This document shows, in pieces, positions 2-43,156 of a stretch of 43,156 bases of DNA (positions are counted from its first letter, which is position 1; every line of letters starts with the position of its first letter). The DNA comes from a virus. The notes under the pieces are model-generated. The model was not told the origin of the DNA. It saw only the letters and a list, made by a program, of their open reading frames with translations, and did no database searches. The stretch spans positions 1-43,156 of the IMG/VR virus record IMGVR_UViG_3300050015_000263; one strand, 5' to 3'. The position numbers and the translations under genes are program-made.

Positions 2-793
2 GGCGTGGTGAATCCAAACCTGCTATCCGCGGGAGGTGACACGCTGGGGACGGATATCCTACGGTCGGTGGCGGGGGCGCGGGCGTGGAATTATCAAACC
101 ATCGGGAGCAATCGCGCGGCGTACGCGCGGGGAGGGCAGTTTGCCAGCCACTACTGGGCGCGGCACGCGCTGATGCTGCTGTGGCTGGGCAAATATAAAA
201 CGTTCAACGCGCAGACGAATTACGACGGGCATACGAATGATACGTGGAGCGAATTAAAAATCAGGAAAAACGGGCGGACATTGGGCCTGGGTAACGCCAC
301 AGGTCGCATCGCGCAGCATACCACACTGGATGCGGGATTGGCTTCGGGGTATATCGCTACCTCGATTCTGGGGATTGAGAACCCGTTCGGCTCAATCTGG
401 GAATTTCTGGACGGGCTGAGATTTTGGGAGGATGCGACATCCGTCGCACGTGCGGCCACCTGCACCGATCCCACGAAATTCAGCGACGCGGCGAGCACGT
501 ATCCGGCGCAACCCGATGGGTATAGCAATATCGCCACACCGCTGGCCGCCACGGACGACTGGCAAAAGTCGTTGATCGCCGGGCATTTTTTACCCGCAAC
601 CGTGGGGGGCGGAGCGGGATCGAGCAGTTACATCACGGATTATTTTTACCGAGACAGCGCAACCAACGCGTGGCGGATCGCCATCGTCGGTGCGGGCCTG
701 GACATTGGTTCGAGTGCGGGGCTTCTCGACCTCAATGCGAGCTGGTCGTCTGGGGGTCGCGGCCGGAATGTGGGCGGGCGCGGCGCCTTCTGA
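2..793 (+). CDS. DGR target protein, C-terminal part (gene split by contig ends)
   Basis: This is the 3' part of the gene that starts at 42263; joined through the 127-bp terminal repeat it encodes 519 aa. The segment contains GLGNATG and GIENPFGSIWEFLDG, which resemble the C-type-lectin/formylglycine-enzyme-like fold of many DGR-diversified phage proteins, and it ends in NVGGRGAF, a typical end for variable lectin domains. The last 118 bp before the stop are the variable repeat. Residues that differ from the template-encoded version are N/D/T changed to G, D, I or S. Its likely role is a displayed binding protein on the virion. Which particle part carries it is not shown by the sequence; its place among head genes suggests the head or neck. 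Confidence 0.88.
   Translation, partial: GVVNPNLLSAGGDTLGTDILRSVAGARAWNYQTIGSNRAAYARGGQFASHYWARHALMLLWLGKYKTFNAQTNYDGHTNDTWSELKIRKNGRTLGLGNATGRIAQHTTLDAGLASGYIATSILGIENPFGSIWEFLDGLRFWEDATSVARAATCTDPTKFSDAASTYPAQPDGYSNIATPLAATDDWQKSLIAGHFLPATVGGGAGSSSYITDYFYRDSATNAWRIAIVGAGLDIGSSAGLLDLNASWSSGGRGRNVGGRGAF
673..790 (+). repeat. DGR variable repeat (VR)
   Basis: These 118 bp align without gaps to the template repeat at 925-1042 (offset 252). There are 11 mismatches, at 695, 696, 701, 705, 714, 728, 741, 746, 756, 762 and 778. At every one the TR has A; the VR has G at nine and T at two (705, 746). Eleven of the 22 template adenines are changed and no C, G or T is changed. The last 12 bp are identical in both copies and end two bases before the target stop codon is completed, matching the position of the initiation-of-mutagenic-homing end in known DGRs. 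Confidence 0.95.
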
Positions 794-794
794 T

Positions 795-837
795 TCGCGC
801 GGCCCCGTGCGCGAGAGCGCCGGGCCAGGCCGCGCGA
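795..837 (+). other. Hairpin/cruciform just downstream of VR
   Basis: A perfect 10-bp inverted repeat pairs 795-804 with 828-837. Nested inside, GCGC-GAGA-GCGC (809-820) forms a small hairpin with a GAGA loop, and GGCCC (801-805) can alternatively pair with GGGCC (822-826). Bordetella-type DGRs need a DNA hairpin with a four-base GRNA loop shortly after the VR for efficient homing; GAGA fits that loop. The assignment is by analogy. Confidence 0.6.
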
Positions 838-843
838 TACTGC

Positions 844-861
844 GGCGCGCGTAAGCGCGCC
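844..861 (+). other. Second GNRA-loop hairpin between VR and TR
   Basis: A perfect 7-bp stem (GGCGCGC, 844-850, with GCGCGCC, 855-861) closes a GTAA tetraloop. There is no T-tract after it, so it is not a clear terminator. It may be a second homing cruciform or part of the 5' structure of the DGR RNA. Confidence 0.5.
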
Positions 862-867
862 TCAAAT

Positions 868-907
868 TTGACAAGTGCTGGCCGCGAACCAATAGGGATC
901 GCGGCCA
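868..907 (+). promoter_or_regulatory. Possible promoter and hairpin leading into TR
   Basis: TTGACA at 868-873 is a perfect -35 box; 17 bases later stands AATAGG (891-896), a poor -10 match. Overlapping it is a perfect 9-bp inverted repeat, TGGCCGCGA (879-887) with TCGCGGCCA (899-907), ending 17 bases before the TR. It could drive or structure the TR transcript. The promoter part is weak because of the -10 box. Confidence 0.35.
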
Positions 908-924
908 CAGGCTGACCGAGACGT

Positions 925-1042
925 GCGGATCGCCATCGTCGGTGCGAACCTGAACAATGGTTCGAATGCGGGGCTTCTCAACCTCAATGCGAACTGGACG
1001 TCTGGGGATCGCGACCGGAATGTGGGCGGACGCGGCGCCTTC
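925..1042 (+). repeat. DGR template repeat (TR)
   Basis: Invariant donor copy for the VR at 673-790. Its adenines fall mostly in AAC/AAT, ACG and GAT/GAC codons when read in the target frame, so A-to-N changes alter surface residues while the lectin scaffold stays. The TR ends in a run of eight A after position 1042, where the VR copy has the target stop codon. It lies 139 bases upstream of the reverse transcriptase on the same strand, the usual DGR order. Confidence 0.95.
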
Positions 1043-1181
1043 AAAAAAAATCTCGAAGTCACGGCGGCCTCGCCTCTGGGCGAAATACACAACCGCTCTC
1101 ACTACGTGCTGGTAGGCGATCAACAAACGCCGAAAGCTCGGAGGGCAACAAGAAGGCTCAAGAAATGCGGGTGATGGAATC
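1043..1181 (+). ncRNA. TR-to-RT spacer, probable 3' part of the DGR RNA
   Basis: This 139-base spacer separates TR and RT. In the Bordetella phage DGR the equivalent stretch is transcribed with the TR, binds the RT complex and primes cDNA synthesis. Here it also stays open in the TR reading frame to 1174, coding 44 further residues after the homology ends, which may be a remnant of an older target-gene 3' end from which the TR was copied. No gene of usual size is seen in it. Confidence 0.5.
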
Positions 1182-2198
1182 ATGAAGCGACACGGGAACC
1201 TCTTTGAATGGATCGCGGACACGGATAACCTGGTGGCGGCGCATGAGGCAGCGCGGCGGGGGAAGAAGCATTACGCCGAAGTGCGGGCGATCAATGCGGA
1301 CCCGGAGCGCTGGCTCAGGCCACTGCGCGAAACGCTGCTGGCGGGGACGTATCGGACATCGGATTACGTTTCGTTCACGCGGCGGGAATCGGGGAAAGAG
1401 CGTTTGATCAGCAAGTTGCCGTATTACCCGGACCGGATCGCGCACCATGCCGTGATGCAAGTGCTGGGGCCAATCTGGGATAAGCAGTGGGTGCGCGATA
1501 CGTATTCATCGATCAAGGGGCGGGGCATCCATGACGGCGTGCGGCGGATGCACGAGTTCCTAAAGGACAAGATGGGGACGCGCTATTGCCTCAAGATCGA
1601 CGTGCGCAAGTTTTACCCGTCGGTGAACGGCGAGATTTTAAAGTCGATCCTGGCGCGGAAGATCAAGGACACGCGCGTGATGGCGCTGCTGTGCGAGATC
1701 ATTGATTCCGCGGCTGGGTTGCCGATCGGGAATTATCTGAGTCAGGCCTTTGGAAACCTTTATCTCGGGGAGCTGGACCGGTTTTGCAAAGAGGGGTTGC
1801 GGACGCGGTATTACGCGCGCTACTGCGATGATGTGGTGATTTTCGGCGAAACCAAGGAATGGCTGCGGGCGATCCTGGGCGAGGTGGCGAACTTTTTAGC
1901 GGTGGCGCTGGAGCTGACGCTCAAGGGCAACTGGCAGATCTTCCGGGTTAAGGAACGCGGGGTTGATTTTCTGGGATACCGGTTCTTCGGGAATCGGACG
2001 CTGATCCGAAAGCGGATCGCGACGCGGTTCAAACGCCGCGTGGGGGAGTTGGTGCGGAGAGCGGCGCGGGGCGAGGTGGCGCCGGAGAAGATCCGCGCGA
2101 CGCTGGCGAGCTACCATGGCTGGCTGAGTCATGGTAATGGTCGGAATCTGGAGCGGGCAATGGTCAATAAATTCGGGCTGGCGGGGGTGATCGGATGA
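1182..2198 (+). CDS. DGR reverse transcriptase
   Basis: A 338-aa reverse transcriptase that should copy the TR RNA with mis-incorporation opposite adenine. Visible RT blocks: LKIDVRKFYPS (D140, first metal ligand), GLPIGNYLSQAFGNLYL region (179-195) holding IGNYLSQ, which matches the DGR-type motif with SQ in place of the group II intron/retroviral form, YARYCDDVVIF (YCDD at 214-217), and a lysine/GYRFF block near 245-265. Size and the lack of maturase or endonuclease domains fit DGR RTs. The TGA overlaps the next ATG (ATGA), so it is translationally coupled to the head-tail connector gene. No Avd gene accompanies it. Confidence 0.95.
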   Translation: MKRHGNLFEWIADTDNLVAAHEAARRGKKHYAEVRAINADPERWLRPLRETLLAGTYRTSDYVSFTRRESGKERLISKLPYYPDRIAHHAVMQVLGPIWDKQWVRDTYSSIKGRGIHDGVRRMHEFLKDKMGTRYCLKIDVRKFYPSVNGEILKSILARKIKDTRVMALLCEIIDSAAGLPIGNYLSQAFGNLYLGELDRFCKEGLRTRYYARYCDDVVIFGETKEWLRAILGEVANFLAVALELTLKGNWQIFRVKERGVDFLGYRFFGNRTLIRKRIATRFKRRVGELVRRAARGEVAPEKIRATLASYHGWLSHGNGRNLERAMVNKFGLAGVIG

Positions 2199-3449: not shown

Positions 3450-3839
3450 GTGATTGAATTCAAGGTGACGGATAAGAGCGCGGCGTTTTTGGATGCGTTG
3501 GAAACCAAGATGGTGGCGGAGTTCAAGGCGATTCGCGCGGAGGCCGTGAGGGAGATGAAGGCGCGCTGCGTGGTGAGCGAAAAACTGCGGCTCAAGTATC
3601 ACGGCAAGGCGTTGACTGAAGGCGACGCCAAGCATCTGCGCGATACGATCCACGCCGAAGTTAAGCGCGACGGGGTGCGGATCACGCTCAAGGCCGGGGC
3701 GGCCAAGTTCACGGCGCACTTTTTGGAGTTGGGGACGAAGCGCACGCCGGCTCATCCGTTCATCAATCCGGTGGTGAAAGCGCTGTATGCGGGGCTTAAT
3801 AGCCGGATTGCGGCGGCGGCGGCAACGATCAATCTTTGA
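3450..3839 (+). CDS. HK97 gp10-like neck/tail completion protein
   Basis: 129 aa with the family hallmark near residues 90-107: FLELGTKRTPAHPFINP, the conserved 'E-x-G-T-x-x-x-x-A-x-P-F' pattern of gp10-like proteins that join head to tail. It starts with GTG after GAAGGGAATGGGG. The 40-base gap upstream is occupied by the NATA-loop hairpin. The C-terminus is an Ala-rich helix. Confidence 0.8.
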   Translation: MIEFKVTDKSAAFLDALETKMVAEFKAIRAEAVREMKARCVVSEKLRLKYHGKALTEGDAKHLRDTIHAEVKRDGVRITLKAGAAKFTAHFLELGTKRTPAHPFINPVVKALYAGLNSRIAAAAATINL

Positions 3840-3840
3840 A

Positions 3841-3906
3841 AATGCGGAGTGCGGAGTGCGGATTGCGGAGAGAAATAATCGATTACGATTACGATTACGA
3901 TTACGA
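3841..3906 (+). repeat. ATTGCGG-like and ATTACG repeats
   Basis: The gap holds degenerate heptamers (aatgcggagtgcggagtgcgg pattern) followed by four copies of the hexamer CGATTA and then GAGGAATGAGCACGAGGAGG. The same hexamer block precedes the tape measure gene (5629-5657) and the small terminase gene (33478-33516). Confidence 0.7.
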
Positions 3907-5360: not shown

Positions 5361-5587
5361 CGCTGCATTTTTATCCGGGACTGGGGCTGGCGGATCTGGA
5401 GGCGCTGACGCGGGGGCGGATCGTGCGGATGCTGGAGTTGGTGGCGCCGAAAGCGGGGGCGGGAGCGGGGGCAGAAAAGGGTGGCGGTGGCGGTGGCGGT
5501 TGGGTGACGTGCAGCAGTTTGGCCGACATGGCGCGGAAGGCGAAAAAATTACGGATTGCGGATTGCGGATTGCGGACTGAATCATAA
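4902..5587 (+). CDS. Tail assembly chaperone, -1 frameshift product (gpGT-like)
   Basis: The second frame is open from 5249 to 5587 and is -1 relative to the gene above. It encodes LTLHFYPGLGLADLEALTRG and a following helix, the kind of small domain fused to gpG by frameshifting in many siphoviruses. It has no convincing start of its own inside gpG. If slippage happens at 5249-5255 the fusion is 4902-5255 joined to 5255-5587 (about 228 aa). The last residues (LRIADCGLRTES) are encoded by intruding ATTGCGG repeats. Evidence is frame overlap plus slippery sites, without direct proof. Confidence 0.6.
5249..5255 (+). promoter_or_regulatory. Candidate -1 ribosomal frameshift site
   Basis: A run of nine A (5247-5255) reads AAA AAA AAA in the gpG frame, giving the slippery heptamer A AAA AAA. 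The -1 frame is closed by a TAA at 5246-5248, so any shift must occur after it. A second classical heptamer, G GGG GGC, lies at 5327-5333 in the right phase and is an alternative site. Confidence 0.55.
5551..5584 (+). repeat. ATTGCGG repeats inside the 3' end of the chaperone reading frame
   Basis: Three heptamer copies (ATTGCGG at about 5554-5574) are read as part of the -1 frame just before its stop. This shows the repeat has entered coding sequence or that the stop was lost to it. Confidence 0.6.
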
Positions 5588-7509: not shown

Positions 7510-7603
7510 GAATCGGACCGATCGGACCGATCCGACCGCTCGGATAAATCGACTGAATAACAGGAGCGGACGGGCCGTCCGCGAGCCCAGGGGAGAATAA
7601 GCG
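7510..7603 (+). repeat. ATCGGACCGATC repeats and GCGGACGG palindrome carrying an SD
   Basis: Palindromic ATCGGACCGATC units (7510-7530) and CTCGGATAAATCGACTGAATAA lead to GCGGACGG-G-CCGTCCGC (7566-7582) and then CGAGCCCAGGGGAGAA, whose AGGGGAGAA is the SD of the gene at 7604. Near-identical elements precede 8435 and 9843. Confidence 0.75.
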
Positions 7604-8266
7604 ATGGTGGCGATTAAAGAGTTTTCGGTGGCGGGGGTGGCGATCACGGATGAGATCGTGCGGTGCGCGGAGGCGGTGACGGTTGGGGGCGTGGGGTATT
7701 ACCGGGGGTATCTGGCGAACACGGCCAACGATAATATTTTCGGGAATGACTCGGTGAACTATGGTGCGTGGACGGCGGCGGGCAAGGGCGGGATAAGGAA
7801 AAACGTGCTGATCGCGGGGTATCCGGTGGACGTCACGGCGCTGCGGGTCGATACGCGTAACGGGTGGGTTTACTCGACGGTGGCCGGGACGTTTTACGTG
7901 CGGTATCTGGCGCACGATCCGATCCGGAGCGGCCTGGGTAGCGTGGCGATTGATGTGCCGTATCTGCTGCCGGCGGGGACGGCGGTGGTGCTGGCGGCGG
8001 CGGGGCCGTGGCCGTATCTCGCCAAGTGCGGTTACGTGATGGTGGACTGCGAGGGCGGGCGGCCGAGCGTGGACGCGGCGCTGACGCTGAGCAACGGGAC
8101 AAGCGCGGAGGACGTGACGATCGCGGCGGCGATCGCGGCGGGGACGGGGAGTAAATTGAGCGAACTGACAGTGCCGCTGAAGGCGCTGCCGGGGGAGATC
8201 ATTACCGTGAGTACGGCGGACGGCGCGGGGGCGTTTGGGGTGCGGGTGATGCTGCTGGATGTGTGA
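7604..8266 (+). CDS. Virion/tail protein of unknown function
   Basis: 220 aa, strongly beta-rich and rich in Gly, Ala and Val, with no charged coiled coil or membrane segment. I recognise no domain. It lies in the tail tip cluster with the RBS-bearing palindromic repeat upstream and a full repeat cassette downstream. The composition suits a structural tail protein. Confidence 0.55.
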   Translation: MVAIKEFSVAGVAITDEIVRCAEAVTVGGVGYYRGYLANTANDNIFGNDSVNYGAWTAAGKGGIRKNVLIAGYPVDVTALRVDTRNGWVYSTVAGTFYVRYLAHDPIRSGLGSVAIDVPYLLPAGTAVVLAAAGPWPYLAKCGYVMVDCEGGRPSVDAALTLSNGTSAEDVTIAAAIAAGTGSKLSELTVPLKALPGEIITVSTADGAGAFGVRVMLLDV

Positions 8267-8267
8267 G

Positions 8268-8434
8268 GAATTGCGGATTGCGGATTGCGGATTGCGGATT
8301 GAAGAGAAATATAAATTCATGGCGCCACAAAGGGCGCAACGGAACAACGAGCACAACGAAGAATCGGACCGATCGGATAAATCGACTGAGGAATAATAGA
8401 GCGGATGGGCCGTCCGCGAGCCTAGGGGAGAAGC
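8268..8434 (+). repeat. Full intergenic repeat cassette
   Basis: Ordered parts: four to five ATTGCGG heptamers (8272-8299); a block AAGAGAAATATAAATTCATGG.CGCCACAAAGGGCGCAACGG-type (about 8302-8345) ; ATCGGACCGATCGG (8364-8377); and GCGGATGG-G-CCGTCCGC (8401-8417) ending in GGGGAGAAGC as SD for 8435. Other gaps carry subsets of the same modules (9613, 12212, 16568, 17341, 17778, 36592, 37953). Confidence 0.75.
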
Positions 8435-9619
8435 ATGAATCAGAAGCGGGAGATCGTGGCTCCGGTGTGGGCGGAGTGGCGGGGCAACGGGGCGTTGCTG
8501 CTGCGCTGGAATTATTATGGGCATGATGTCGCGCCGCGGTTCGGGGTGTTCGTGGATGGGGCGCTTTTGGCAGTCGTGACGGAGATGCAATGCCTGATGC
8601 CGGTGAGCGGGCCGGGGCGGCATCGCGCGGTGCGCGTGGTGCGACTGGCGGTGGACGACGCGGCGACGCTGGCGGGGTATGTCTACGAGCCGCCGCGCGG
8701 GGCGCGGGTGCGGCTGGCCTGGCCGGGGGCGGATCTGGCGAGCAACGGCGATTTTAAGAGCACGCTGATTTACATGTCGGCGGACGGGAGCGAGCCCGCG
8801 GCGCTGTATGCGGAGCTGCGGGGCGCGCAAAACCGAACGCTGGTGACCGGCGTGCTGCAGGATGGGATCACGTATAAATTCCGGGCGCGGTATCAGGACA
8901 TCCACGGCAACCTGGGGGCGTGGGGCGCGACGGTGGCGCGGACGGTCAACGGCGCTCCGGCGTCGGTCGCGGGCCAGGTGGTGAGTTACGACCAGGCAAC
9001 GCGGACGGCGACGATCACGGCGGCGCGACCGGCGAGCCAGGCGGCGGATGTGGTGGGCTACGAACTGGTGAGCAACGATCTGCCAGGAATTGGCCTGCAA
9101 GCGGCGCTGGTGGATGGCGCGGCGGCGTGGGCGCCGGCGGCGGGGACGACGCTGAGCGCGACGACGGCGGAGTTGGGTGAGGGCGCGCACAAGTGGGCGT
9201 GGCGGGCCGTGGACGGCTCGGGCTTGAGGTCGGCATATGTGGAGTCGGCCTTGGTGCTGGCGCGGTCTGGCGGGGCGCTGGTGGCGGTGGCGGCGGTGCC
9301 GGCGCGGCCGCTGCGCATCGACGCGGTGGCGGGAGCGGGCGGGGTGGTGCTGGTCAGGGTGCGCGTAGGCGTGGCGGCGGCGGGGAATGTGGTGAGGATT
9401 TATCGCGGCGGAGCGCTGGACGGGTCGGCGGCGATGGCGGCGGGGGTGTATGAGTATGCGTATACCACGGCGGCGCTGAGTGATGGGGTGAGTTATTCGT
9501 TTTGCGCGACGGTGGCGAGCTCGGGTGGGGAGAGCGAGGCGACTGAAACGGTGAGCGCGACGGCGGACGCCACGGCGCCGACGGGGGACGCGACATTGAC
9601 GGCGAGCGTGTGTGATTGA
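8435..9619 (+). CDS. Fibronectin type III-like tail protein
   Basis: 394 aa. Three beta-sandwich-like stretches are visible; the segments GVLQDGITYKFRARYQDIHG (about residues 145-165) and ALSDGVSYSFCATVASSGG (about 350-368) carry the Y-x-F-x-A/V-x-A pattern of the Fn3 F strand. Such domains are common in baseplate/tail-tip proteins that make weak contacts with host surface glycans. The SD is GGGGAGAA. The stop is immediately followed by the long ATTGCGG array. Confidence 0.65.
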   Translation: MNQKREIVAPVWAEWRGNGALLLRWNYYGHDVAPRFGVFVDGALLAVVTEMQCLMPVSGPGRHRAVRVVRLAVDDAATLAGYVYEPPRGARVRLAWPGADLASNGDFKSTLIYMSADGSEPAALYAELRGAQNRTLVTGVLQDGITYKFRARYQDIHGNLGAWGATVARTVNGAPASVAGQVVSYDQATRTATITAARPASQAADVVGYELVSNDLPGIGLQAALVDGAAAWAPAAGTTLSATTAELGEGAHKWAWRAVDGSGLRSAYVESALVLARSGGALVAVAAVPARPLRIDAVAGAGGVVLVRVRVGVAAAGNVVRIYRGGALDGSAAMAAGVYEYAYTTAALSDGVSYSFCATVASSGGESEATETVSATADATAPTGDATLTASVCD

Positions 9620-9842
9620 GGATTGCGGATTGCGGATTGCGGATTGAGGATTGCGGATTGCGGATTGCGGATTGCGGATTGCGGATTGCGGATTGCGGAT
9701 TGCGGAATGCGGATTGCGGATTGCGGAATGCGGATTGCGGATTGCGGATTGCGGATTGCGGAATGAAGAGAAATATAAATTCATGGCGCCACAAAGGGCG
9801 CAATAAGAGCGGACGGGCCGTCCGCGAGCCCAGGGAGAAATT
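9613..9842 (+). repeat. Long ATTGCGG heptamer array plus cassette
   Basis: About 21 consecutive 7-bp units (ATTGCGG with ATTGAGG and AATGCGG variants) run from about 9613 to 9765. They are followed by the AAATATAAATTCATGG module and GCGGACGG-G-CCGTCCGC (9809-9825) with AGGGAGAA as SD for 9843. Long open frames across it on both strands are products of the period (7 is not divisible by 3 and no phase holds a stop), so they are not genes. Confidence 0.85.
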
Positions 9843-12203
9843 ATGGATCTGATCGTGCCGGCGGCGGTGGGAAATCCTTATGCGGTGCCGGAGTTGGCCG
9901 TGGAAATTTGGATTGGGGGCCGAAGGAGAAGTGATGCCTACTGCCGGGAGTATGCAGTATCGGCGGGGGCGGGGGCGGGGCGGGCGACAATTGAGTTTTC
10001 GCCCGGGCTGGTGAGCCGAGTGTACGATCAATACGATATGGCGCTGGCGCTGGAAAACGACCTGGTGGAGATCGTGGTGCGGCCGTGGGGGACGGTGTGG
10101 CGCGGGACGATGGTGGGGCGCGCGAGCAGGCCGGGGGTGAGCTACGAAGCGCGGGAGCTGTTGGGAAAATTGAACGATGTTTTTTTTCCGCATGAATACA
10201 ACTACGTGGATGAGATCGTGCGCGAGCGCAAGACGGCCGTGGCCGTGGCGGCGCGCAAGTATGCGTGGACGGCGCGGCAGATCGCGGCGGACGCCTACGA
10301 TGTTTACACGGGATGGAAAACGGGGCACGCAGACGATGATTTTTTGCTGGGGATCGATCTGGAGACGTTCCCGGAAATCGTGCCGCCGAGCGAGACGCGG
10401 ATCATGGGCCAAGGGCTGCTGGCGGGCCTGCAACAGTTGTTACAGACGATCGATTACCGCTACCGGATTTGCGTGGATCACGCCGACGACAGCAGTATCG
10501 TGCGGGCTTTTTTGATGGGCGCGGGGCGTAAGTGGCCGGTGACGCGCGGGCAAGATCCGGCGATGGATTGCCTGAGCCAACCGGGCGGCCCAGCCAATGT
10601 GACGATGGTGGACAAGCGCGTGGACGCGTCGGCGACGATCACGCATGTGTTGGCGGAGGGCGAGCCGAGAATCATCGAGACGGCGTTCGAGTTGGAGCCG
10701 GCATGGAACGAAGTAGCGAACGATTTCGCGCCTCCGGAGGGGCATACGCTGGCGGAGTATGTCACCGAGGGCGAGCGTGATCTGGTGATCTCGGATTGGA
10801 AGCGCTTCACTGAAAAAACTTTGGATCTGAAAATCGGAGACAAGGACGCGGCCAAGGTCATCAACCCCTACTACCGCAAGAAATATGAGGATGTCTGCCG
10901 GGAATATTTCATCCCGCTCACCGACGACACCTACTACCTCAACGACGACGCCGAAACGTATCCGGTGATGCAGGGCGAGGCGGGGCGGCAGGTGAAGATC
11001 GAGAGCGGGCTAGTGCAGCAGATCCAGGGGCGCGACCTGAACCATTTCGTTGTTTATAAACGCGTGGGGGACGACACGCTGTATGTGAAAACCGGCGGGT
11101 TCACAGTCCACAACTCTGAGGTTGTGCGCTTTGACGAGCCGATGGTGGACACGGTGTCGGCGATTTACACGCGGGGCGTGGCGGGCGCGGGACTGGCGAG
11201 CGCATGGAACGCGGGCGCGAAGACGAGCAATTACCAGGTGGATACGGGGATCGACCTGACGGATAAGATCAGCCCGGCGGCGATTACGGCGGGGTGCTGG
11301 CTGCTGCTGGGCGAGATGTATTGCGCGCCCTACAAGGTGCTGAGCCGGACCGCGGACACGCTGACCGTGCAGGGCAACGTAAGCGGCGCGGGCGGGGTGA
11401 ATACGGATGGGGCCGAACAGAAGGGCGCGCAGTGGATGGTGGTGAGTAAGGACCCGGTGATCGCGCGCGGGACAACGGGGGCCGGGCAAGCGCTGGGTAA
11501 TTACCGTGTAGCCAATGCGGATTTGCCAGACATACCGGAGATCAATCAATACGTGGGGATGTTTTTGATTGTAGCGACGTGGGACGACACGACGCAGGCG
11601 CTGACGATGGCGGCGAGCGACCTCAAGAGTTATGGGGTCGTGTGCAACATCGTCAGCGGGGCCTACACGCTGTTGCAAACCAATGCGTTCAAGGCGGACC
11701 TGAGCGGGGAGAATGCCGGCTGGATGCTGTTGCGGCCGAGGCTGGAGGGCAAGCGGGCGTTCGAGTGCATCGAGCTCAACGCGTCGTACCAGTCGTTGCA
11801 GCGGCTGTTTTATTTTTCGGGGGATCTTTCGGCGCTGAGAAACAAGAGCGTGGTTTACAAGCAATCCGGAGAGCACAAATGGCTGACGCAACGGGGTAAT
11901 TATCAGTTGGTCCCCTCGACGGTGGCGGGCGAGGAAGACAAATACACGGCGGTGAAAAATGAGGCGGTGGTAGACGGCCGCCAGGATTTGTCCGGGCTGG
12001 CGGCGTGGGCGCTGAATCAGGTGGCGGGGGCGACGGGCTACAAAATTAATTACTCGCCGCTGGAGTTGCGGCCGATTGATTTCGGTTTGCGCCTGGGGGA
12101 TTGCCCGGTGGACACGGGCGTGGACAGCGGGGCCACGGTGGTGGGGCTGAGCTACGATTTGATCAAACAGGCGGTGGCGGTGACGGCGGCGAGTTGGGGA
12201 TGA
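9843..12203 (+). CDS. Large tail hub/baseplate-type protein
   Basis: 786 aa. Size and place (downstream of tape measure and Fn3 protein) suit a tail hub or tail-associated protein. The N-terminal 120 residues are beta-rich (LAVEIWIGG, IEFSPGLVSRV, GTMVGRA), as in hub domains; the rest mixes alpha and beta and ends GLSYDLIKQAVAVTAASWG. I do not see a peptidase or lysozyme active site. The start ATG follows AGGGAGAA from the palindromic repeat. Confidence 0.5.
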   Translation: MDLIVPAAVGNPYAVPELAVEIWIGGRRRSDAYCREYAVSAGAGAGRATIEFSPGLVSRVYDQYDMALALENDLVEIVVRPWGTVWRGTMVGRASRPGVSYEARELLGKLNDVFFPHEYNYVDEIVRERKTAVAVAARKYAWTARQIAADAYDVYTGWKTGHADDDFLLGIDLETFPEIVPPSETRIMGQGLLAGLQQLLQTIDYRYRICVDHADDSSIVRAFLMGAGRKWPVTRGQDPAMDCLSQPGGPANVTMVDKRVDASATITHVLAEGEPRIIETAFELEPAWNEVANDFAPPEGHTLAEYVTEGERDLVISDWKRFTEKTLDLKIGDKDAAKVINPYYRKKYEDVCREYFIPLTDDTYYLNDDAETYPVMQGEAGRQVKIESGLVQQIQGRDLNHFVVYKRVGDDTLYVKTGGFTVHNSEVVRFDEPMVDTVSAIYTRGVAGAGLASAWNAGAKTSNYQVDTGIDLTDKISPAAITAGCWLLLGEMYCAPYKVLSRTADTLTVQGNVSGAGGVNTDGAEQKGAQWMVVSKDPVIARGTTGAGQALGNYRVANADLPDIPEINQYVGMFLIVATWDDTTQALTMAASDLKSYGVVCNIVSGAYTLLQTNAFKADLSGENAGWMLLRPRLEGKRAFECIELNASYQSLQRLFYFSGDLSALRNKSVVYKQSGEHKWLTQRGNYQLVPSTVAGEEDKYTAVKNEAVVDGRQDLSGLAAWALNQVAGATGYKINYSPLELRPIDFGLRLGDCPVDTGVDSGATVVGLSYDLIKQAVAVTAASWG

Positions 12204-12266
12204 TGGGAGAAGGATTGCGGATTGCGGATTGCGGATTGAAGAGAAATACGATTGGGGATTAAAGAG
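12204..12266 (+). repeat. Short ATTGCGG cassette
   Basis: Four heptamers (about 12213-12237) followed by AAGAGAAATACG, a shortened form of the cassette found at 8268. Confidence 0.7.
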
Positions 12267-16559: not shown

Positions 16560-16671
16560 GAATAATTGCAGAATGCGGAGAGAAATATAAATTCATGGCG
16601 CCACAACGGGCGCAACGGAACAACGATCACAAAGAGGAATCGGAATAATCAATTAAAGGCGGGGTATTGAT
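16560..16671 (+). repeat. Repeat cassette before fibre gene
   Basis: A single AATGCGG, then the AGAGAAATATAAATTCATGG module, CAACGGGCGCAACGGAACAACG, and a degenerate ATCGGAATAATC. AAAGGCGGGG gives the SD for 16672. Confidence 0.65.
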
Positions 16672-17337: not shown

Positions 17338-17396
17338 GAAAATGCGGAATGCGGAATGCGGAATTAAAAATAAATTAAAGAAAGAGGGGAAATGTT
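17338..17396 (+). repeat. AATGCGG heptamer run
   Basis: Three AATGCGG units (about 17341-17361), then A-rich sequence and GAGGGG as SD for 17397. Confidence 0.65.
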
Positions 17397-17765: not shown

Positions 17766-17840
17766 AGAGTGTGGGGGGAAATATCAATACATGGCGCCAC
17801 AACGGGCACAACGGAACAACGATCACAACGAAGGAGGAAT
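17766..17840 (+). repeat. Repeat cassette before lysis region
   Basis: GGGGAAATATCAATACATGG, then the GCCACAACGGGCACAACGGA-type block and CACAACGAAGGAGG, which supplies a near-perfect AAGGAGG SD for 17841. Confidence 0.65.
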
Positions 17841-18068
17841 ATGGAAGCATCCATTAAATTCAGCGAGCGGGACTTGGCCGTGCTGCGGCTGGGCGAAATC
17901 CAGGGCAAGTTGGCGGCACTAAGCGAAGAGCGCGATCACCTAGTGCGGAAGATCGCGGCGGAGACGCCGGGGGCGCCGGGGGCGGATGTGGAGGCGGCCA
18001 AGGCGCGGGCGGCGGCGATGGCGGAGGAAGCATCGGAGGCGGAGCGTTGGACGTATGGGATGAAGTGA
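17841..18068 (+). CDS. Small coiled-coil protein
   Basis: 75 aa, almost entirely helical with heptad-like spacing (LRLGEIQGKLAALSEERDHL), no membrane segment. The ATG has AAGGAGG at ideal distance. It lies between the fibre genes and the lysis cassette. No family recognised. Confidence 0.65.
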   Translation: MEASIKFSERDLAVLRLGEIQGKLAALSEERDHLVRKIAAETPGAPGADVEAAKARAAAMAEEASEAERWTYGMK

Positions 18069-21304: not shown

Positions 21305-22009
21305 TTACCCCGTGGAAATGAATTCCCCTGTTTCCAGGCCGGTGCCGCCGGGAACGGAGCAATGTATTTTGAAGTTCGCGGCCTTCGTGGTGAAAGGATT
21401 AAAGCGCGCTTGGCCGTCGGCGAAATCGGAAAGCGAAATTGACGCGGAAGCGCCTGGCTCGAGTTGTCCGAGATGCGCGGTGTAGCCACCATCAATCATG
21501 CCGTAATTCAGGCTCACATCAATATCTTTCCAGGCATAATTATTAAGATTTTTAAGATTAAGCGTATGGCCTCCGGTGATGGAGGCTTGGGACTTAAGGT
21601 CAACGAGTTGCTCCTTAAAGGGTAGGTCTTTGGCTAGGGGGATATTAGTGCGCGACTGGGGATCATTGAGTTTACCGATAACGGCGATGATGATGATGAG
21701 GGGCAAAAGAATCGCGCCAAAGACTACCACGGGATCATTTTTAAATATTTTATGCGGGGCTGGAAGAGGAGCCGCCAATGGTCGCGGGGCGGCGCGGTCG
21801 AGTGATTGGCGCGCTCCGCAGAATGGGCAAAAGGCGGCGCTGGACGCGATGAACTCAGCGCAGGCGGGACATTTTTCGAGATCCATGAAAAAACCCTCCG
21901 ATGGTCGCGGGGCGGCGCGGTCGAGTGATTGGCGCGCTCCGCAGAGTGGGCAAAAGGCGGCGCTGGACGCGATGAACTCAGCGCAGGTGGGACATTTTTC
22001 GAGATCCAT
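21305..22009 (-). CDS. Membrane protein with two zinc ribbons
   Basis: 234 aa on the minus strand, unlike all other large genes. Two almost identical 41-residue units each carry CPxC...CPxCG (a zinc ribbon). A membrane helix follows (VVFGAILLPLIIIIAVIG, about 93-110), then a beta-rich domain rich in Asn and Ser. This layout, cytoplasmic zinc ribbon, one helix, outer domain, occurs in many bacterial membrane proteins of unknown role; in a phage a superinfection-exclusion role is conceivable. A second start at 21886 with its own GGAGGG SD lies between the ribbons. Confidence 0.75.
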   Translation of the reverse strand: MDLEKCPTCAEFIASSAAFCPLCGARQSLDRAAPRPSEGFFMDLEKCPACAEFIASSAAFCPFCGARQSLDRAAPRPLAAPLPAPHKIFKNDPVVVFGAILLPLIIIIAVIGKLNDPQSRTNIPLAKDLPFKEQLVDLKSQASITGGHTLNLKNLNNYAWKDIDVSLNYGMIDGGYTAHLGQLEPGASASISLSDFADGQARFNPFTTKAANFKIHCSVPGGTGLETGEFISTG

Positions 22010-22023
22010 GAAAAAACCCTCCG
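21778..22023 (-). repeat. 123-bp tandem duplication in the zinc-ribbon gene
   Basis: Bases 21778-21900 and 21901-22023 are copies with only two differences. The unit spans the zinc ribbon codons, the ATG and the upstream GGAGGG SD, so the inner copy has its SD translated as the residues SEGFF. Confidence 0.95.
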
Positions 22024-26550: not shown

Positions 26551-26597
26551 GGCAATGCGGAATGCGGAATGCGGAATCAAAAACGGAATACCGTTTT
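26551..26597 (+). repeat. AATGCGG run and NATA-loop hairpin, copy c
   Basis: Three AATGCGG units (about 26554-26575) run straight into AAAACGG-AATA-CCGTTTT (26580-26597) and CGGTCGTGG. Here two of the repeat families are joined. Confidence 0.7.
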
Positions 26598-34690: not shown

Positions 34691-36592
34691 ATGAACAGGG
34701 CTCAAACCTTACAAGAGATAGCGTTCAAAGAAGATAAACTGAGGCGCAAATATGAACAAGCGCTCGATGATCTAAAAGAACGCAAGGATGAACTAGAGCG
34801 CCAAGAGGTTGAACGTGAGCTACGGAGGATTGAACTCGGGTTCGATAAGATGCCGCAGGTGGATCTTGTCGAGGTTAGTAATCGGACCGATGACTACCGC
34901 GAGATCGAGATGGCGCCAGAGGATCTTGCCGAGATTGGTTATCGGCCCGATGTCTGCCGTAAGATCCAACAGCACCGGGCGCGCCTCAAGCGACTGCTGG
35001 AGCGCGGCGATATCGTTTACGACGCAGAGGCCGCGAACCGGGCGGCGCTGTTCATCGAAAGCTACATCAAGCACTGGAAAGAGCCGTTCGCGGGCAAGCC
35101 GTTCGTCCTGAGCGAGTGGCAGCGCGAAGAGATCGTCAAACCGATATTCGGCTACAAGTGGAAAGCCACGGGGCTGCGGGTATTCCGGGAGGTTTACATT
35201 CAGTTGGCCCGCAAAAACGGAAAGTCCTCGCTGATCGCCGCGATATTGCTGCTCATTTTGTTCATGGATGGGCGGGGGCTGGAGATTTATTGCGCGGCGA
35301 CCAAGGAAGACCAGGCCAAGCTGATCTTCAACGACTGCTCGGAGTTCGTGCGCTCGTCGTCGGCGCTCAAGAAGCGCTGCCAGGTCTACACGAAACACAT
35401 CACCTGCAGGGTCAACTCCTCGATCCTGAAGATCCTTTCGGCGGATCAGAACAGCCTGGATGGGCTCAATGTTTCGGCGGCCTCGATCGATGAATTGCAC
35501 GCGCACCCTACGGCGCGGGTGCATGACGTGATCATGACGGCCACTGGGACGCGCAGTCAGCCGCTGGTTTTGAAGGTGACGACGGCGGGCGATAACCTGC
35601 AAGGGGTGTGCTTCAAGCAATACGAATATGCGGAAGACATCCTGGAGGGACGGATTGACGATCCGGCCTATTTCGCCTACATCGCCGAGCCGGACATCGA
35701 GGACGACTGGAAGAGCCCGGAGGCGTATCGCAAGGCTAATCCCAACCTGGGGATTTCGGTGCGCGAGGACTATATCCAGCGCGAGTTGGCGAAGGCAATC
35801 GCGCAGCCCAGCTACGTGCCGGTATACCGGAAATACACGCTGGATCAGTGGATGCAGACGTCGGGCGTGGCCTGGCTCGATTACGAGCGCTGGAAGAAAT
35901 GCGCGGCGCGTTACGACGAAGAGGATCTGCGCGGCTGCCCGGCCTGGCTGGGTGTGGACATGAGTAAGACCACGGATCTTACGGCAGTGGCCGCGGTGGT
36001 GGAGTTGCGGGAAGAACGCTACAGCCGGGCGGGCGACCGGCTGGCGCCGGGGCTCTACCTGCTGGTGAAATGCTTTCTGCCGGCGGAACGGATCGAACTG
36101 ACGGACCGGCGCGAGGCGGATTACAAGCAATGGGTTGAGGATGGCTGGATCAATGTGTGCGGTACAAGCTCGATTGACGACGACGATGTTTCGGAGCAGA
36201 TCGCCGAATGGCACGGGCTGTTCGAGGTACGGGAAGTGGGCGTGGACCGCAACCGGGCGGGGAGCGTGATCAAGCGGATCGAAGCGGCGCACGGGCGCGA
36301 GGTGATCGAGGTCGACCAATCAATGAAGGGGATCAGCGAGACGGCGAAGTCGCTGGAGCGGGCGATCGCGGATGTGACGTTGAGGCACAACGACAACCCG
36401 TGCCTCAACTGGCAGGTGCAGCACGTCAAGGTGCGAGTGAACGGCGACATGATCAAGCCAATCAAGGGGCATGATCAGACGTCGGGAAAACGGATCGATG
36501 CGATCTATGCGACGGTGGATGCGCTGTTTGCGCGGTCCAATGGGGAGCATGAGGAATCGGTTTACGAGACGCGGGGGATGGTGTGCTTATAA
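34691..36592 (+). CDS. terL: Terminase large subunit
   Basis: 633 aa. Walker A ARKNGKSS (173-180) and Walker B ASIDELH (264-270) make the packaging ATPase; GVDMSKTTD (D423) and a late RIDAIYA with further Asp residues form the RNase H-like nuclease that cuts concatemers. The N-terminal 100 residues are a charged coiled coil with a 20-residue tandem repeat (53-72 and 73-92). It follows the small subunit by 13 bases and precedes the portal. Confidence 0.95.
   Translation: MNRAQTLQEIAFKEDKLRRKYEQALDDLKERKDELERQEVERELRRIELGFDKMPQVDLVEVSNRTDDYREIEMAPEDLAEIGYRPDVCRKIQQHRARLKRLLERGDIVYDAEAANRAALFIESYIKHWKEPFAGKPFVLSEWQREEIVKPIFGYKWKATGLRVFREVYIQLARKNGKSSLIAAILLLILFMDGRGLEIYCAATKEDQAKLIFNDCSEFVRSSSALKKRCQVYTKHITCRVNSSILKILSADQNSLDGLNVSAASIDELHAHPTARVHDVIMTATGTRSQPLVLKVTTAGDNLQGVCFKQYEYAEDILEGRIDDPAYFAYIAEPDIEDDWKSPEAYRKANPNLGISVREDYIQRELAKAIAQPSYVPVYRKYTLDQWMQTSGVAWLDYERWKKCAARYDEEDLRGCPAWLGVDMSKTTDLTAVAAVVELREERYSRAGDRLAPGLYLLVKCFLPAERIELTDRREADYKQWVEDGWINVCGTSSIDDDDVSEQIAEWHGLFEVREVGVDRNRAGSVIKRIEAAHGREVIEVDQSMKGISETAKSLERAIADVTLRHNDNPCLNWQVQHVKVRVNGDMIKPIKGHDQTSGKRIDAIYATVDALFARSNGEHEESVYETRGMVCL
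34847..34966 (+). repeat. 60-bp in-frame tandem repeat in terL
   Basis: Two imperfect 60-bp copies (34847-34906 and 34907-34966) encode two 20-residue units of the terminase N-terminal region. Confidence 0.75.
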
Positions 36593-36653
36593 GATTGCGG
36601 ATTGCGGATTGCGGATTGTGGATTGAGGGAATTTAAAAGCTGGGAGAGTCGAT
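36593..36653 (+). repeat. ATTGCGG repeats between terL and portal
   Basis: Four heptamers (about 36595-36620) including variant ATTGTGG and ATTGAGG, then GGGAG as SD of the portal gene. Confidence 0.7.
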
Positions 36654-37964
36654 ATGGGATGGATCGGGAAGCACAAGGAGGGTGGCGCGGATTGCGCGTG
36701 GATGCGCAAGGGCGTCCAGGCCAGCGGGCGCGCGGTGCAGGCCGATCAGCCGGTATCGGCGGATGCGACGGCCTCGATTATTTACGGGACGATGCCGGCG
36801 ACGGCGGCCGGAGTGGAAGTGACGCCGGAGACGGCGCTGCAATCGACGGCGGTGCTGGCGTGTGTGCGCAACATCAGCGAGGACATCGCCAAGTATCCGG
36901 TGCGCCTCAAGCGGCGGGATAAGAGCGATCCGCGCACGGCGACGCTAGCCACGGACGATCCGCGCTACTGGCTGATGATGGCCGAGCCCAACCCCTACCA
37001 GACGGCATTTGAATTCAAGGAGTGGATGCAGGCCTCGGCGCTGGTCTACGGCTACGGGATCGCGGAGATCGAGCGCGACCGCTTCGGGATGCCGGTGCGG
37101 CTGTGGCCGCTGCACTCGCGGAGCGTGAACGTGCTCTATAGCGGCGGGGAGTTGCTGTATTACGTGAGTTGGTATAACCAGGACGTGCATGTGTTGCGCA
37201 GCGACCAGGTGCTGCATATCAAGGGCTTTTCGGTGCACGGGCTGATGGGGTCGGCGTATACCGTGCTGGGGCGTGAGGCGATTGGACTGGACCGGGCGCA
37301 CGCGGAATACAGCGCGCGATTTTACGGCAACGGGGCCGCGCCGCGCGGGGCGCTGGAGATCCCTGGGAAACTGAGCCAGGAGGGACAGAGCCGATTGCGT
37401 ACGAACTGGAACGATACCTACTCGGGCCTGGGCAACGCGCAGCGCGTGGCGATCCTGGAGGAGGGAATGAAATTCAATCCGATCGGAGTCAATCCCAAGG
37501 ATAGCCAGGTGATCGAGGGGCGGCAGTTCCAGGTGAGCGAAGTCTGCCGAATTTTCCGGATGCAGCCGCACAAGATTTTTGAGCTGGCCAGATCCACCAA
37601 CAACAATATCCAACAGCAGGCGATCGAGAATAATGAGGACACGCTGGCGCCGCACATGGCGCGCTGGACGCAGCGGCTGGACAAGTGCCTGCTGCTGCCG
37701 AGCGAGAAGCAGGCGCACAGCCTATACCACGAGTTTGAGACCGGGGGGCTACGATGGGCGGACTCAACGGTGCAGAAGGATTACATTCAGGCGATGGTTG
37801 GTTTTGGCGTGCTATCGATCAATGAGGGACGCAAGGAGCTGGGGCTCAATCCGGTGGCGGGGGGCGACGTGCACCGGGTGCAGGTGAATACGGCGCCGCT
37901 GGGGAGCGCGGTGGCGAATGGGGAAGCGGCGGGGAAGAGTGCGGCAGGCGGAGAAAAAATATAA
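36654..37964 (+). CDS. Portal protein (HK97 family)
   Basis: 436 aa. ALQSTAVLACVRNISEDIAKYP (about 62-83), the helix that opens HK97-type portals, is followed by LMMAEPNPYQTAFEFKEWM and, near 290-320, SEVCRIFRMQPHKI, the conserved region at the tunnel loop. It forms the dodecamer through which DNA enters and leaves the head. Length is typical. SD GGGAG. Confidence 0.95.
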   Translation: MGWIGKHKEGGADCAWMRKGVQASGRAVQADQPVSADATASIIYGTMPATAAGVEVTPETALQSTAVLACVRNISEDIAKYPVRLKRRDKSDPRTATLATDDPRYWLMMAEPNPYQTAFEFKEWMQASALVYGYGIAEIERDRFGMPVRLWPLHSRSVNVLYSGGELLYYVSWYNQDVHVLRSDQVLHIKGFSVHGLMGSAYTVLGREAIGLDRAHAEYSARFYGNGAAPRGALEIPGKLSQEGQSRLRTNWNDTYSGLGNAQRVAILEEGMKFNPIGVNPKDSQVIEGRQFQVSEVCRIFRMQPHKIFELARSTNNNIQQQAIENNEDTLAPHMARWTQRLDKCLLLPSEKQAHSLYHEFETGGLRWADSTVQKDYIQAMVGFGVLSINEGRKELGLNPVAGGDVHRVQVNTAPLGSAVANGEAAGKSAAGGEKI

Positions 37965-38060
37965 ATTCATCGCGCCACAACGGGCACAACGGAACGACGA
38001 ACACAACGAAGATTTCTAATGGAGCAGAACCCTTTCAGGGTTCGGAGGCAAGAGGGGATA
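37953..38060 (+). repeat. Repeat cassette before protease gene
   Basis: AAAATATAAATTCATCGCGCC, ACAACGGGCACAACGGAACG and ACACAACGAAG modules; it overlaps the last codons of the portal gene and ends at AGAGGGGATA, the SD of 38061. Confidence 0.65.
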
Positions 38061-41841: not shown

Positions 41842-42245
41842 ATGGGCGCAAATGGCAATTCATGGCGCTGGCGAAAGCGGGCGTGGATCTGGCGGCGGCG
41901 GCGATCGTAATCAAGGCGCAGCGGCGCACACTGACCACGATTCCCAGAGATCCGAATTATAACGACGTGCTGCCGGCGTTGAGCAACGCGGGCGCGATCA
42001 CCAACAACACCTGGGGAGCCGCCGGCGGGGCGCAGTCGGCGAATGAGGACGCCTTGGAGATCCGGGCGACGGTGGAGATCACCACGACGGGCTCGCCAAG
42101 CGGCACAGTGGAGATCTGGTATCACGAGAGCCACAACGGCGGCGCGACGTGGCCAGGCAACGGGCTGGGCTACGGGCCGGTGGCCACAGTGGTCATCTCG
42201 GGCGCGGGGACGACGGCGCCGCTTGATTTCGCGGTTAAGTATTGA
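41838..42245 (+). CDS. Virion-type protein before the DGR target
   Basis: 135 aa. Basic/helical N-terminal 35 residues (KWQFMALAKAGVDLAAAAIV) and a beta-sandwich-like rest (ALEIRATVEITTTGSPSGTVEIWYHESHNGG). ATGA overlap with the gene before it and 17 bases before the target gene. It could be the partner that attaches the variable protein to the particle. Confidence 0.55.
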   Translation: MNGRKWQFMALAKAGVDLAAAAIVIKAQRRTLTTIPRDPNYNDVLPALSNAGAITNNTWGAAGGAQSANEDALEIRATVEITTTGSPSGTVEIWYHESHNGGATWPGNGLGYGPVATVVISGAGTTAPLDFAVKY

Positions 42246-42262
42246 GATCGGAGGGGGGCATC

Positions 42263-43156
42263 ATGAATCGAACGCTGAAAACATTACTGCTGACCGGGGC
42301 GCTGACGGGCGGGAGCACGGGCGGCGCGACCGGAGGCGACGGCAACCCCTTTGTTTACGGCGTGCGCTGGGACACCGTAAATGACGTAATGACAGGCGGG
42401 CGGTTTTATGGCGATTCCTTCGTGGCGGGGACGTTCGGCACGCCGATCCAGGATACCATGCGGCGATGCGTGGTGGATCTAGTGGGGCGGCAGGCGCGGT
42501 ATTATCTGGGGGCAACGGACTCGGCGCTCAAGGCGGGGACGCCGACGCCGGCGGCGGTGACCGTCAGCGTCGCGGGCGGGTGGACGCTGGGATCGTATGA
42601 TGCCGGAACCTACGGCTTTGCGGTGGGCAAGGCCGCGGTGTTCGCCGCGGCGCGCAAAGGGATGATGCTTAAAAACACCACGGCGGGCAAGGGGTGGTAT
42701 TGCCGGATCATCAGTGCCGCGGCGGATCAGATCATCGTGGCGTCGGCGGATGACCAGGTGAGCGGGAGCGCGCATGTGCCGGTGGCTCCGCTGGCCGACG
42801 GTGATACGTTTTGGATCGGCGATGCGATCCTGGACGGCAGCGACGGGCCGGTATGTGTCGAGGTGCCAAAGTTTTGCTATCGAATGTGGCTCGATGGGAA
42901 CAATAGCTATATGGCGGCGAGCCAGCGGCAGTTCAGTGGGAGCGCGGTGCATCCGCTATTCACGCGGGGCGCGGCGACAGTAAACATGGCCTACTTGGAC
43001 GCCTTCAAGGGGTCGCGCGTTTCGTCGTCAGGCGTGGTGAATCCAAACCTGCTATCCGCGGGAGGTGACACGCTGGGGACGGATATCCTACGGTCGGTGG
43101 CGGGGGCGCGGGCGTGGAATTATCAAACCATCGGGAGCAATCGCGCGGCGTACGCG
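42263..43156 (+). CDS. DGR target protein, N-terminal part (continues at 1-793)
   Basis: The frame is open to the contig end and through the 127-bp overlap joins the ORF at 2-793, giving 519 aa. GGAGGGGGGC upstream is a strong SD. The N-terminus (MNRTLKTLLLTGALTGG) is hydrophobic and may be a weak signal or anchor. GVRWDTVNDV, TMRRCVVDLVG, VEVPKFCYRMWLDG and HPLFTRGAA are the kind of conserved blocks found in phage DGR targets ahead of the lectin-like domain. The variable part is at 673-790. Confidence 0.88.
   Translation, partial: MNRTLKTLLLTGALTGGSTGGATGGDGNPFVYGVRWDTVNDVMTGGRFYGDSFVAGTFGTPIQDTMRRCVVDLVGRQARYYLGATDSALKAGTPTPAAVTVSVAGGWTLGSYDAGTYGFAVGKAAVFAAARKGMMLKNTTAGKGWYCRIISAAADQIIVASADDQVSGSAHVPVAPLADGDTFWIGDAILDGSDGPVCVEVPKFCYRMWLDGNNSYMAASQRQFSGSAVHPLFTRGAATVNMAYLDAFKGSRVSSSGVVNPNLLSAGGDTLGTDILRSVAGARAWNYQTIGSNRAAYA
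43030..43156 (+). repeat. 127-bp terminal direct repeat (circular assembly overlap)
   Basis: Identical to bases 1-127. Exactly 127 bp is a common largest k-mer of short-read assemblers, so this is most simply an assembly overlap of a circular or circularly permuted genome and not a biological terminal repeat. Confidence 0.95.

Follow-up and report, generated by a model that had tools for sequence, protein, structure and literature searches.

A diversity-generating retroelement with an adenine-only mismatch record in a phage genome read as circular

The locus and its target gene

The window analyzed here is the entire virus record IMGVR_UViG_3300050015_000263, a stretch of 43,156 nt that carries a target gene ending in a variable repeat (VR), followed by a template repeat (TR) and a reverse transcriptase (RT) gene (Table 1). 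Bases 1–127 of the window match bases 43030–43156 exactly, and an assembler run at k = 127 produces just such an exact 127-base overlap when the contig is circular. Because of this overlap a circular genome of 43,029 bp is the best reading, and the target gene therefore begins at 42242 and runs through the contig ends to its stop at 793, giving an open reading frame of 1581 nt (526 codons) over the joined ends. Most of this gene lies beyond positions 673–2198, where the sequence-only reading had placed the element. The circular junction splits genes at the window ends, the target of the diversity-generating retroelement (DGR) among them. Around the cassette the gene order runs terminase, portal, protease, major capsid, four small genes, target-VR-TR-RT, head-tail adaptor, head closure, neck and tape measure.

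Table 1. Features of the cassette and its target gene in window coordinates
Feature	Position	Strand	Remarks
Target gene, 5′ part	42242..43156	+	start TTG 42242 or ATG 42263; runs over the circular junction to 793
Target gene, 3′ part	2..793	+	VR is its last part; stop TGA 791-793
VR (variable repeat)	673..790	+	118-bp copy of TR with 11 mismatches, all on TR adenines
Inverted repeat / DNA hairpin	795..837	+	4 nt past VR; perfect stem of 10 bp, TCGCGCGGCC; corresponds in position to the BPP-1 stem-loop
Short hairpin, 12-nt arms	879..907	+	upstream of TR
TR (template repeat)	925..1042	+	22 adenines; eight AAY codons when read in the target frame
TR-RT spacer, 139 nt	1043..1181	+	begins with A8; in the place of the BPP-1 RT-recruiting, self-priming RNA
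DGR reverse transcriptase, 338 aa	1182..2198	+	RVT_1 1.7e-15; phrog_1423 RT 2.5e-116; PDB 8ub7 1e-44

Both parts of the target match the family phrog_5302, labeled 'tail protein' (2e-14 for the 5′ part and 1.7e-29 for the 3′ part), and relatives of the C-terminal domain were found at 25 viral loci. The target family profile also gave a weak match (E 0.0013) to TaqVP (5vf4), a solved C-type-lectin (CLec) DGR protein (PMC6328139). In this weak match VR falls on VR, and the target GIENPFGSIWEFLDG is aligned on the GIADLVGNVWEWVAG motif of TaqVP (a GNVWEW-like motif). The target profile yielded nothing useful against BPP-1 Mtd, and two low-confidence AlphaFold models were obtained for the target C-terminus (pLDDT 39 and 43). 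The C-terminal domain probably has a C-lectin (FGE-like) fold. The product is a putative virion adhesin, borne on either the tail or the head.

The repeats, the reverse transcriptase and their flanking signals

The sequence-only reading had described a gapless 118-bp match between VR and TR with every mismatch on a TR adenine, and realignment reproduced this description in full, coordinates included. The 11 mismatches comprise 9 A to G, 2 A to T and 0 A to C from TR to VR, so that half of the TR adenines (11/22) are altered in VR and none of the 96 other positions, a placement expected by chance with p = 7.4e-10 (hypergeometric). The last 12 bp of the two repeats are identical. No other TR-like site was found on either strand of the genome, the runner-up matching 51 of the 96 non-adenine positions. 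VR ends at the codon preceding the target stop, and the mismatches hit 10 codons of the target frame, nine of them nonsynonymously (N>G, N>D, N>I, N>S, N>D, N>S, T>S, D>G and D>G) and one synonymously; six of the eight AAY codons of TR are altered. Placing AAY codons in the TR is the usual DGR design, which allows a broad choice of amino acids without introducing stops. A preference for AAY is also reported in PMC6328139.

An RT with both IGNYLSQ and YCDD motifs downstream of TR had likewise been claimed, and the reading frame is intact with both motifs in place. Its top PDB match is 8ub7, the BPP-1 DGR RT, over residues 2–334 (1e-44), with the group II RTs in the PDB far behind (2e-23). The IGNYLSQ sequence (IGxxxSQ) stands where group II RTs have QGxxxSP, and none of the NCBIfam RT models, including the group II and DRT models, matched the protein at the cut-off. 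In a tree of 20 RTs, the window RT groups with RTs that are also linked to TR/VR pairs and the group II RTs lie apart on a long supported branch; the position of the BPP-1 RT in this tree is weakly supported.

The hairpin that follows VR folds better than 200 of 200 shuffles (z -3.4). A hairpin downstream of VR is known from BPP-1 and is not universal in DGRs. Most of the relatives tested lack such a perfect stem after VR, and the hairpin is therefore not required in the family. The TR-RT spacer on its own folds no better than shuffles (z -0.4), Rfam searches found no known RNA, and neither a sigma-70 promoter nor a terminator was found in the cassette.

The layout can be compared piece by piece with that of the Bordetella phage BPP-1 (mtd-avd-TR-brt; NC_005357). 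In both systems the gene for a virion adhesin has VR at its 3′ end and TR comes before the RT, both have a hairpin 4 nt past VR (stem of 8 bp in BPP-1 and 10 bp in the window), the TR-RT spacers are of similar length (144 nt versus 139 nt), and the RTs are related along their full length. The differences are that BPP-1 has an IMH/IMH* mismatch block inside the repeat, in place of which the window has its identical 12-bp end, and that BPP-1 carries avd, whereas the window has no separate gene, avd or other, in the 131-nt gap that parts target from TR.

Interpretation, relatives and rival explanations

The element is a genuine, ordinary phage DGR of a well-known kind, and we are close to certain that it is of the BPP-1 type and sits on a circular tailed-phage genome. 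Large surveys already catalogue DGRs and find viral targets to be mostly tail proteins and adenine bias to be near-universal (PMC8144416). The adjacent error-prone RT would copy the TR transcript, misincorporating opposite template adenines, and the result would be a shifting set of residues at Asn, Asp and Thr positions in the C-terminal domain of the putative adhesin. In BPP-1 the RT complex is recruited by the spacer, which also serves to prime the cDNA (PMC12875486). By analogy with the BPP-1 literature the spacer of the window may prime in the same manner, and retrohoming and receptor binding by the diversified protein would likewise be expected. From the clean record (0/96 non-adenine changes), the relatives and the BPP-1 literature, we infer that the DGR is currently active.

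Related RTs are encoded in 28 viral loci. Ten of these (L002–L011, RT identity of about 40–54%) all have the order VR-TR-RT, with 84–100% of their VR/TR mismatches on TR adenines, and the same layout and adenine bias recur in further relatives of the target and in bacterial and archaeal assembly loci. Since most relatives show A to G more often than any other change, the 9:2:0 spectrum of the window is not odd. DGRs of crAss-like phages and of Psychrobacillus phage Perkons have RTs 43–47% identical to the window RT and share the target family phrog_5302 (hhalign E 1e-24 for the Perkons target), in phages much larger than this one. Four more distant loci (L022, L025, L027 and L029) are near-identical DGRs from different metagenomes that combine one TR with very different VRs and so form a natural series of outcomes. 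Their TRs are identical and their VRs differ pairwise at 15–22 sites, all but 0–2 of which lie on TR adenines. This comparison is evidence that the wider family is active; it does not extend to the phage IMGVR_UViG_3300050015_000263 itself. Sibling genomes of that phage were sought by the VR/TR DNA pattern, by the target protein alone and by the repeated intergenic element, and none was found. The phage is without a close relative in the searched collections and adds a clean, compact phage DGR.

The points counted against this reading are the lack of a bAvd gene, the lack of a second copy of the phage and, weakly given the small number, the absence of A to C among 11 mismatches. No bAvd-family gene (PF22296) was found in the window by a search that recovered the BPP-1 avd at 2e-37 as its positive control, nor did the bAvd model match in ten relatives and Perkons; PF05635 also found nothing in the window, and the same model was without a match in BPP-1. 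The sequence-only reading had called the element complete, which is too strong given that no bAvd-family gene turned up in the window. In BPP-1 Avd is required: once it is inactivated, a reconstituted system no longer edits (PMC12875486). It is conceivable, if rather improbable, that the DGR worked recently and now lies idle in this lineage, for example through loss of a needed accessory protein; the bAvd search found no gene, and a single past event would leave the same record in the one genome at hand. However, the RT frame, its motifs and the spacer are all intact, the 0/96 non-adenine differences mean that decay has had little time to act since the most recent transfer, and close relatives are also without bAvd yet have adenine-directed records. 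DGRs of Faecalibacterium prophages, which differ from the window phage, likewise have TR/VR and RT without a recognizable Avd homologue, and another small protein has been suggested there (PMC5883640). Alternatively, the 3′ end of a tail gene could simply have been duplicated next to an unrelated RT of group II, retron or defense type, which would fit the observation that general RT models match the RT as well. We give this next to no credence: the mismatches are one-sided and adenine-only (p 7e-10), the RT is nearest to bRT and carries the DGR motif, the group II and DRT models all fall below cut-off, and the same layout occurs in many unrelated phages. Gene duplication, a group II intron, a retron and a DRT-type RT were all rejected.

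The RT of the window belongs to a clade without recognizable bAvd, and its DGR would therefore be a reasonable system in which to ask whether RT and RNA alone suffice. A stronger version strikes us as unlikely: that the DGR needs no Avd-like partner at all and that the protein it diversifies is carried by the capsid or neck and not by the tail, as the position of the target between the capsid and head-tail-adaptor genes might suggest. Neither the question of an Avd-free DGR nor the head-connector placement is new in kind.

Genomic setting and other repeats

The BPP-1 cassette lies beside tail fiber genes and that of Perkons after them, in contrast to the window, where the cassette sits in the head-connector region. 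Given this location, one may ask which part of the virion carries the variable protein. As the cassette sits between the major-capsid and head-tail-adaptor genes, the product may be borne on either the tail or the head; the 'tail protein' label of the target is a family annotation only, and a head or neck location is possible. Other DGR targets have been likened to capsid decoration proteins (PMC5883640, PMC11792537), among them the Hoc-like targets of some Faecalibacterium phages (Brigit, Mushu; PMC5883640). Where other phages have a related portal and capsid, no homologue of target or RT was found in the fetched stretches, and relatives of the cassette occupy unrelated phage backbones, next to baseplate, portal or internal virion genes. 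From these comparisons the cassette therefore appears to pass from phage to phage as one unit.

The genome holds several other repeats. Arrays of heptamers of the GGATTGC/GGAATGC type lie at 3839–3874, 5546–5581, 8268–8303, 9614–9762, 12212–12238, 17339–17370, 26554–26583 and 36592–36627; they are chiefly intergenic, run to as many as 21 copies and seem out of the ordinary in so compact a phage genome. Another element, dispersed and about 79 nt long (AAATATAAATTCATGGCGCCACAACGGGCGCAACGG...), occurs close to gene starts at 8303–8381, 16579–16657, 17775–17853 and 37953–38031 and also near 9767–9803, in copies that are 71–87% alike, and the viral contigs contain no exact copy of its core. A 123-nt tandem duplication at 21772–22017 consists of two copies that are 97% alike. 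Finally, a 47-nt stretch (GAGCGGACGGGCCGTCCGCGAGCCCAGGG) with an inner inverted repeat is present three times, at 7559–7605, 8394–8440 and 9802–9848, directly 5′ of three genes.
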